This document shows, piece after piece, positions 34,945 through 39,081 of a stretch of 64,000 bases of DNA. Position numbers and translations under genes: made by a program. Location: NCBI RefSeq assembly GCF_021018745.1, contig NZ_CP063845.1, positions 4,216,001 to 4,280,000 on the forward strand, in the 5' to 3' direction. Position 1 is the stretch's first letter. Each line of letters opens with the position of its first letter. Below the pieces are notes generated by a model, which did not search any database, was not told where the DNA came from, and saw only the letters and a program-made list of their open reading frames with translations. The stretch is from Gloeobacter morelensis MG652769 (GTDB lineage Bacteria > Cyanobacteriota > Cyanobacteriia > Gloeobacterales > Gloeobacteraceae).

Positions 34945-35778
34945 TCAACCGCCGAAGCGAGCGCGGACCAAAACGTCGGGCAGATAGGGCGATTCCACTG
35001 CGAGCGCTTCACCGACTTTAAAAAAGATCGTCGCAAGGCCCACACCGACAATCGACAGCCAGCCGCGCGGATTGGCCCGGCGGCCGGGGGCGCTCCAGTA
35101 TTCCCGATGCGCCTCCAGGTGTTTGAGCATCGCATCGTTGAAGGCTGTGCCGTTGCGCTCCAGCAGGGCTACCAACAGCTGCACCTCGCTGGTGCGCACC
35201 TGCAGCGCCTGGGGGTCAAACTGGGTTTCTTGCAGCGCTGAGCGCAGCGCCAACTGCGCCCGGCGCGCCTGCATCGGTTGGCGCAGGGAAAAGGCGCGCA
35301 GCGCATCAATTGTCAGATACGCATACTCGGGAGCCCCCGTGCTCGACTGGCGCAGCAACTCGTTGGGTATTTCAAGCAGCGTCTCAAGCTGGATATCCCG
35401 GCGAGCCGCCACCGCCAGACAAAACCCCTCGATCCAGTGGCGAGCGTGGGTGAAAGCGGTCGGACCGGTGGTGTACAGGCAGACATCGTTGCTCGCCGTA
35501 TACAGTTGCGCGTCCCGTTGCCCTGCAGGCGCCTGCGCCAGCCTCAAAGTGTCGGTCATCGCGAGCGCCGCCCGGTCGATCGCCTGGAACAGCTCGCGGT
35601 CGTTGTTGTCGAGTACCGCCAGGCAGCCCGCCAGCCCGAGAGCGGCGCCGTAGATCTGCTCCAGGCTGTTTTGCTGTTGACGTTGGAGCGTTTCGAGCGC
35701 AGCGGCGTACTGCTGTTTGTACTGCTCGTACAACGCCTGCAGGCTGTCCAGGTGGGCGGCGTGGTGAGGAAAATGCAT
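34945..35778 (-). CDS. Imm49-like immunity protein
   Basis: A 277-residue all-helical protein from ATG 35778. The C-terminal pattern, a Trp-containing segment, a run of small hydrophobics and then VESPYLPDVLV, is what I recognise from Imm49 family immunity proteins of polymorphic-toxin systems. The middle has AFTHARHWIEGFCLAVAARRD and a late HLEAHREYW helix. It has no signal peptide, so it acts in the cytosol. It is divergent from an exported DNA/RNA nuclease (178 bp between starts). The assignment is by motif memory, not search. Confidence 0.58.
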   Translation of the reverse strand: MHFPHHAAHLDSLQALYEQYKQQYAAALETLQRQQQNSLEQIYGAALGLAGCLAVLDNNDRELFQAIDRAALAMTDTLRLAQAPAGQRDAQLYTASNDVCLYTTGPTAFTHARHWIEGFCLAVAARRDIQLETLLEIPNELLRQSSTGAPEYAYLTIDALRAFSLRQPMQARRAQLALRSALQETQFDPQALQVRTSEVQLLVALLERNGTAFNDAMLKHLEAHREYWSAPGRRANPRGWLSIVGVGLATIFFKVGEALAVESPYLPDVLVRARFGG

Positions 35779-35956
35779 ACAAACCAGCCTAAACGCCCAG
35801 GCAGCTCCTGGCAACTTGTTTCGATTTACGCCCGTCGGCTTGCCCCTAGACGATTCTGGTTAAGGGCGCAGTAGGAATGGGTAAAGATTGCGCCATTGAC
35901 ATCCCATCGAATCCAACTTTATGGTCATGTAGACTTTTACAAGTGGTTTTTGCTCT

Positions 35957-36790
35957 ATGTTTCGCAACATTTTTTCGAAGCGCACAGGCATCGTCGGCGC
36001 AGTGCTCTCGGCGCTGCTTTTGTTGACTCCTAAAACTTCAAACGCCCAAACATCGAGTGTGCATCTCACCCTTGGTAATCCGAGTGGTGCCGTGACAAGT
36101 ACCAGCTATCCGTATAACTATCTGCTGATCAAATCGCAGTATGCCCTTTCCTACAGCGATTACGACAAAATTCCCAACTGGGTGAGCTGGCAGCTCAACA
36201 GCAGCTGGTTGGGCAGTGCTTCGCGCCAGAACGATTTTCGGCCCGATTCGGCTTTGCCCAGCGGCTGGTACCGGGTGGCGAGCGACGATTACACCAACAG
36301 CGGCTACGACCGGGGGCATATGACCCCTTCGGCCGACCGCACCAGTTCGACGCAGAACAACTCCGCCACTTTTTTGATGACCAACATCCTGCCTCAGGCA
36401 CCGGACAACAACCAGGGACCATGGGCGGAGCTTGAAGAGTATTGCCGCGAACTGGTCAATCAGGGCAAGGAGCTTTATATCATCGCCGGAGGCGACGACA
36501 ACGACAACTACTTCCAGAGCAACTACTCCGGGCAGTACATCTCGGTTCCTTCCTACGTCTGGAAGGTAATCGTCGTGCTCGATTATCCAGGCCAAGGCGT
36601 GGGCGGCGTAAATACAAACACGCGGGTAATCGCAGTCGAGATGCCGAATGTGCAGGGAATTCGCGACGACGACTGGCGCTGGTATCGCGTGAGTGTCGAT
36701 CACATCGAGTACTACACCGGTTACAACTTGCTGTCGAACGTGTCGACGAGTATCCAGGATGTCATCGAAGCCCAGGTAGACGCTGGATAG
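35957..36790 (+). CDS. Exported DNA/RNA non-specific endonuclease (NucA family)
   Basis: A 277-residue protein with a signal peptide (~1-31, ending SNA/Q). The catalytic DRGHMTPSADR (~118-128) contains the general-base histidine, and NILPQAPDNNQGPWAELE supplies the metal-binding asparagine; together they define the beta-beta-alpha-metal NucA/Serratia nuclease fold. It should be secreted or periplasmic and degrade both DNA and RNA, as Anabaena NucA does. It is flanked by an Imm49-like gene and an Imm49-like remnant. Confidence 0.9.
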   Translation: MFRNIFSKRTGIVGAVLSALLLLTPKTSNAQTSSVHLTLGNPSGAVTSTSYPYNYLLIKSQYALSYSDYDKIPNWVSWQLNSSWLGSASRQNDFRPDSALPSGWYRVASDDYTNSGYDRGHMTPSADRTSSTQNNSATFLMTNILPQAPDNNQGPWAELEEYCRELVNQGKELYIIAGGDDNDNYFQSNYSGQYISVPSYVWKVIVVLDYPGQGVGGVNTNTRVIAVEMPNVQGIRDDDWRWYRVSVDHIEYYTGYNLLSNVSTSIQDVIEAQVDAG

Positions 36791-36849
36791 CTTTACTGAG
36801 CGTTTTTTTTCACTCCATCCTCGAAAGTGTGCAAGGTGCAGCAGGTCTC

Positions 36850-36887
36850 GCTCGCCATCGAAAACTATTTGATTGATGATGGCGAGC
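36850..36887. repeat. Inverted repeat downstream of the nuclease
   Basis: GCTCGCCATC (36850-36859) pairs with GATGGCGAGC (36878-36887) around an 18-base AT-rich loop, 60 bp after the nuclease stop. No T-run follows, so it is at best a weak terminator or mRNA-stabilising hairpin. Confidence 0.4.
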
Positions 36888-36921
36888 AGGTTCACATCCA
36901 TACACTAGACCGCTTGGATGC

Positions 36922-37140
36922 TTAAACAGCGCACTTTCCCTGAACAATCGCCAGTGGCAAGTAATCCGATTCGACCTGGACAGCCATTCCCTGCTCGTAG
37001 GCTAGACTTGCCAACGCCAACAAGTCATAAGCTAGAAAATGTAACGCAATCCGGTCCTGACGCAGTTGGCGCTCAGCCCCGCTCACCCCGGCAATCCGGA
37101 CGAGCGCCGCGACCAGCAGTTTCGGGCGGGCGATCCCGCC
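36922..37140 (-). pseudogene. Imm49-like C-terminal remnant after speA
   Basis: The minus strand is open for 72 codons directly after, and in the same frame as, the speA stop. Its translation ends with LLALASLAYEQGMAVQVESD then YLPLAIVQG, matching the C-terminal Imm49 signature (AY..G......SDYLP..LV) and resembling the end of the protein at 34945-35778. There is no start codon with a ribosome site and no N-terminal half, so it looks like a decayed fragment cut off where speA ends. Confidence 0.45.
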
Positions 37141-37143
37141 ACC

Positions 37144-39081
<1,938 letters not shown>

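Follow-up and report, generated by a model that had tools for sequence, protein, structure and literature searches.

Imm49 (PF15575) is an immunity family of polymorphic toxin systems, where it pairs with the toxin domains Tox-REase-1 and Tox-REase-6; Imm49/Tox-REase-6 systems are listed for Actinobacteria and cyanobacteria, Tox-REase-6 being the type marked for cyanobacteria, with the published signature E, D, ExK, Q, Y (Zhang et al. 2012, PMC3482391). Immunity genes are also described as orphans without an adjacent cognate toxin, or in polyimmunity arrays (PMC3482391; for T6SS orphans, e.g., PMC12247911). A further nuclease–inhibitor system, NucA–NuiA of Anabaena (PF01223 and PF07924), is a distinct one, Imm49 and NuiA being separate Pfam families.

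We analysed a 64,000-nt stretch of DNA (the window) from a 5.10-Mb genome, G000, whose close congeners in our set are G001, G002 and G003. Within it, an Imm49 gene and the gene for a NucA-type nuclease are divergent, with 178 bp between them, and an Imm49 fragment follows the nuclease:

34945..35778, minus strand: Imm49 gene, 277 aa (PF15575 match)
34957..35855, no strand assigned: stretch (Imm49 body and promoter side) absent from the same site in G002 (rluD–nuclease gap alignment)
35957..36790, plus strand: secreted NucA-type DNA/RNA non-specific nuclease, 277 aa (PF01223, PDB 1zm8, Sec-type signal, DRGH motif)
36922..37038, minus strand: Imm49 3'-terminal scrap (38 codons and stop) at a rearrangement junction (Imm49 profile, nucleotide match)
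37036..37143, no strand assigned: conserved speA 3' flank, forming the upstream half of a "broken frame" (identity to the G001 and G002 flanks)
37144..39081, minus strand: speA-like gene on the far side of the junction (orthologue positions), which we take from sequence knowledge to encode arginine decarboxylase

As in the described Imm49/Tox-REase-6 systems, the window gene belongs to the Imm49 family, and its genus has toxin tails with E, D, ExK, Q and Y directly upstream of Imm49, fitting the published cyanobacterial arrangement; unlike in those systems, the window copy is alone, without an adjacent toxin or cassette, and is divergent from a housekeeping-type nuclease. It resembles orphan immunity genes in having no cognate toxin adjacent and in having paralogues in toxin loci elsewhere in G000, and differs from them in being single and outside any polyimmunity array, with a protective role that is only putative. 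We favor, at a probability of about 85%, a reading in which this Imm49 is a maintained orphan directed against Tox-REase-6-type toxins, the nuclease is an incidental neighbor and the fragment is junction debris. This corrects a tempting call of guilt by adjacency and names the probable real partner of Imm49, a REase-type polymorphic toxin.

The Imm49 gene and the nuclease

The product of 34945-35778 matches PF15575 with E 6.6e-52 and 176.7 bits, far more than the 30.1 bits set as the curated threshold, and covers 10-217 of the 217 profile positions; the minus-strand fragment matches positions 185-216 (E 1.4e-9, 38.4 bits), so that both frames are Imm49 as the preliminary description had proposed. 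The full-length protein is predicted to be all-helical (pLDDT 82.6, pTM 0.86) and has the conserved hydrophobics and C-terminal P trait of the family, P267 being invariant in the Imm49 alignment. A Foldseek search of this model against the PDB gave no significant match, returning mostly helical-repeat look-alikes. When the PDB was searched by sequence, with the Imm49 protein or with the profiles of Imm49 and of the toxin tail (described below), no meaningful relative emerged, the matches being weak and mostly to unrelated or designed proteins. Scanning the Imm49 and nuclease products against NCBIfam and PADLOC yielded nothing useful, and the viral contigs scanned for Imm49 contained no relatives.

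At the same site in G001 lies an orthologue 95% identical to the window gene, whereas toxin-linked Imm49 proteins are 86% identical between G000 and G001. The next-closest homologue, a G003 copy of 57% identity, belongs to a toxin operon. The window gene is under purifying selection, with dN/dS of 0.33 for G000–G001 and of 0.13-0.16 against G003, where dS is saturated. In the Imm49 tree it groups with the G001 orthologue, the G003 copy termed Imm49a and a third G003 copy (support 99/99), separately from the toxin-linked clade (98/98); G000 has one further full-length Imm49, at 2,688 kb. Another stand-alone Imm49, about 36% identical to the window gene, occurs in G003 at 4,214 kb (L018 7797-8663) near a LysR-type regulator, with neither tail nor nuclease nearby, and is thus a second orphan.

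The other part of the preliminary description to hold up is the secreted nuclease: the 35957-36790 product matches PF01223 (E 4.8e-61), its best solved relative is Anabaena NucA (PDB 1zm8, E 2.9e-90), its DRGH motif is intact, and a Sec-type leader can be read from the sequence. Orthologues are 99% (G001) and 94% (G002) identical. It is a stand-alone, putatively exported protein without toxin trafficking domains. The NucA/NuiA analogy drawn earlier was also apt, the window nuclease being a close NucA relative; unlike Anabaena NucA, however, it has no NuiA beside it. The sole NuiA of G000 (184266-184643) adjoins a second NucA, the two genes being convergent and about 80 bp apart (pair at 183438-184643), and NuiA adjoins a NucA also in G001, G002, G006, G007, G014 and G046. 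The known inhibitor that keeps linkage to NucA in this lineage is thus NuiA, not Imm49. The second NucA of G000 (L020 7064-8686, about 183,060-184,690) has 376 codons, an N-terminal extension and a leader resembling that of lipoproteins (SVVLGSC); the convergent NuiA gene is directly downstream.

Distribution of Imm49, nucleases and toxin tails

The NucA-type nuclease family was found in 22 of 59 relatives, and Imm49 in three (G000, G001 and G003; one marginal match, of E 0.0065, was left out), all from the window's genus. A separate phylum sample yielded Imm49 in one of 386 genomes, the window's own; within the sampled cyanobacteria Imm49 is thus confined to this genus (that one genome plus two more species), and it was absent from every other NucA-bearing cyanobacterium examined. 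Among the 59 relatives the nuclease and Imm49 are adjacent in G000 and G001 only, Imm49 being present in G003 with no nuclease adjoining. No NucA-profile match lay near Imm49 loci outside the genus (within flanks that were often only 1.5 kb), and the literature searched contained no paper linking Imm49 to a nuclease of the NucA type. The window pair also departs from the order typical of polymorphic toxins, namely, toxin and then co-directional immunity gene. The nuclease and Imm49 thus show no conserved proximity in other phyla and neither conserved proximity nor co-occurrence among relatives; lack of such proximity in related genomes is an outcome that the preliminary description had itself named as telling against its proposal of a nuclease with its own immunity gene.

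Imm49 instead tracks a REase-type toxin tail, which occurs among the 59 relatives in exactly the three genomes with reliable Imm49. G003 has a co-directional array of a 300-aa protein ending in the tail, Imm49b and Imm49a, with no nuclease nearby; its last gene, Imm49a, is the copy 57% identical to the window gene. In G001 an ORF of 1,007 codons carries the tail, and behind it come Imm49, a free-standing tail cassette of 147 aa and a further Imm49. G000 has an ORF of 942 codons, then Imm49 and a tail cassette, and transposase-like ORFs lie between and after these. With Imm49 tracking the tail in three genomes, and NucA present in 22, we judge the nuclease not to be the partner of Imm49. The toxin loci lie at L019 5211-12035 (G000, 2,685-2,692 kb) and L016 3832-9139 (G001). 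The transposase-like ORFs cut that of G000, where a second Imm49 seems to survive only as a remnant; between G000 and G001, toxin and Imm49 have a dS of 0.32-0.34, roughly three times the value for hemL, proB and rluD.

The tail alignment was used as query against the genome collection, and plasmids were searched with Imm49. The tail scan brought three further loci, from Blastocatellia (L088), Deinococcales (L089) and Acidimicrobiia (L090); Imm49 directly follows the tail in the first two, and in the third, where the toxin has an eCIS core domain, the adjacent Imm49 is convergent to the tail. The plasmid search found, in Pseudoalteromonas (L093), an RHS protein that bears this tail and has Imm49 as the next gene. 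The tail was upstream of Imm49 at six actinobacterial sites, while many actinobacterial Imm49 loci had neither tail nor NucA within the short flanks examined. The tail–Imm49 neighborhood thus extends to four further phyla outside the window's genus. In the Acidimicrobiia toxin (L090 606-6279) the eCIS core domain stands at the start and the Tox-REase-6-like tail at the end, with tail-tube-like genes near, and the convergent gene encodes Imm49 fused to zinc-ribbon domains.

Across the five phyla the tail alignment conserves GE, FDQ, (V/I)EAK, QG and Y, that is, E, D, ExK, Q and Y, matching the published Tox-REase-6 signature (PMC3482391), and we type the tail as Tox-REase-6 on this basis; Pfam had no model matching it. 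The tail model (pLDDT 84.4) has the order helix, strands, helix, and Foldseek against the PDB placed SwaI at the top (E 0.067) with HincII repeatedly below, none of these matches being significant. Judged from motif, secondary-structure order and literature, the tail likely has the REase fold.

G002 shows the nuclease without Imm49. There the orthologous nuclease directly follows rluD, and the distance from the rluD stop to the conserved DNA upstream of the nuclease is 31 bp, vs. 915 bp in the window; neither toxin tail nor Imm49 was found anywhere in the assembly (94% complete). Within these 31 bp, 12 of 15 bases agree in register with the final codons of Imm49, a level reached by 67 of 20,000 shuffles. 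G002 is nearer to G000 than G001 is, as judged from the upstream block (96.9% vs. 95.6% and 96.4%) as well as from speA sites (51 vs. 16 and 7). With such a match in the gap and G002 closest to G000, loss of Imm49 is the simpler history, and G002 probably lost the gene by deletion. Its nuclease is intact and constrained (dN/dS about 0.1). Nuclease dS between G000 and G002 (L049) is 0.25, two to three times the 0.07-0.12 of the flanking genes hemL and proB; local exchange at the site is thus possible, and the raised value suggests local recombination or replacement at the G002 nuclease, which could complicate the history of the locus.

Readings of the nuclease–Imm49 arrangement

On the reading we favor, Imm49 most likely inhibits, by direct binding, the REase-type (ExK) domain at the C-terminus of a polymorphic toxin, and the stand-alone chromosomal copy, which may be expressed and protective, would most likely shield the cell from toxins delivered by kin or related strains; the nuclease would stand beside it through chance gene order, and its status as an incidental neighbor is supported by the genome comparisons. 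A point against this is that two genomes, G000 and G001, share the arrangement, so that it is not a one-genome accident. The same adjacency speaks for the alternative that the nuclease acts as a toxin or harms its own cell, with the divergent Imm49 as its dedicated inhibitor taking the place of NuiA, as do the lack of an adjoining NuiA (unlike at the second NucA), the purifying selection on both genes and the fact that the partners of Imm49 are in general nucleases (PMC3482391). Nonetheless we consider this alternative very unlikely: G002 keeps an intact, constrained nuclease at the same site without Imm49, the other NucA-bearing cyanobacteria examined have no Imm49, Imm49 follows a different toxin across genomes, the two genes are divergent rather than ordered as toxin and immunity gene in one operon, the nuclease stands alone without trafficking domains, and the NuiA in the genome could act on both NucA enzymes. 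Synteny, co-occurrence and cross-phylum neighbors all led us to reject the pairing. Similarly improbable in our estimate is that Imm49 was recruited in G000 and G001 to a new target, the adjacent NucA-type (His-Me-finger) nuclease, replacing the missing NuiA; if true, the target of an immunity protein would have shifted from nucleases of the REase fold to one of the NucA fold.

It is also unlikely, if somewhat less so, that the orphan Imm49 is a functionless relic persisting beside the nuclease by chance. Such a fate would suit a gene that adjoins no cognate toxin, has been lost in G002 and has sister copies in G000 broken by transposases and rearrangements, but the gene is intact and full-length in two species, its dN/dS is low (with the saturated dS against G003 noted above), and it is better conserved between G000 and G001 than toxin-linked Imm49 is. 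The orphan reading makes the window Imm49 a known kind of gene, whose testable partner is located elsewhere in the genome. The four related species form a small set for the study of cross-protection by orphan immunity genes, offering intact pairs, tail cassettes, orphans and one natural loss.

The fragment at the speA junction

The broken frame at 36922-37140 had been described as a decaying duplicate of the neighboring Imm49. An Imm49 C-terminus is indeed present, yet the frame is a chimera, in which only about 36925-37038 (about 113 bp) derives from Imm49 and the upstream half (about 37036-37140) is speA flank. In nucleotide comparison, window DNA agrees with the G001 nuclease flank as far as about 36895. 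The stretch of about 36925-37038 is 79-81% identical to the 3' ends of toxin-linked Imm49 genes (G000, 2,688 kb; G001, 235-237 kb), with 89% amino acid identity over 38 residues, and does not match the adjacent 34945-35778 gene; descent from that gene by duplication is therefore rejected, the fragment belonging with the toxin-linked clade. From about 37036 onward the DNA is the speA 3' flank, with identity of 94.7% to G001 and 91.7% to G002, neither of which has Imm49 at this flank. In G001 and G003 the speA orthologue itself lies far from the nuclease gene; in G002 the two are on separate contigs. Given these split matches and the displaced speA, we interpret 36922-37038 as a scrap of a toxin-linked-type Imm49, which would have been left as debris where the nuclease region was joined to speA. 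In both G001 and G002 the DNA immediately downstream of the nuclease contains transposase-like ORFs, and for this reason the site looks prone to rearrangement.
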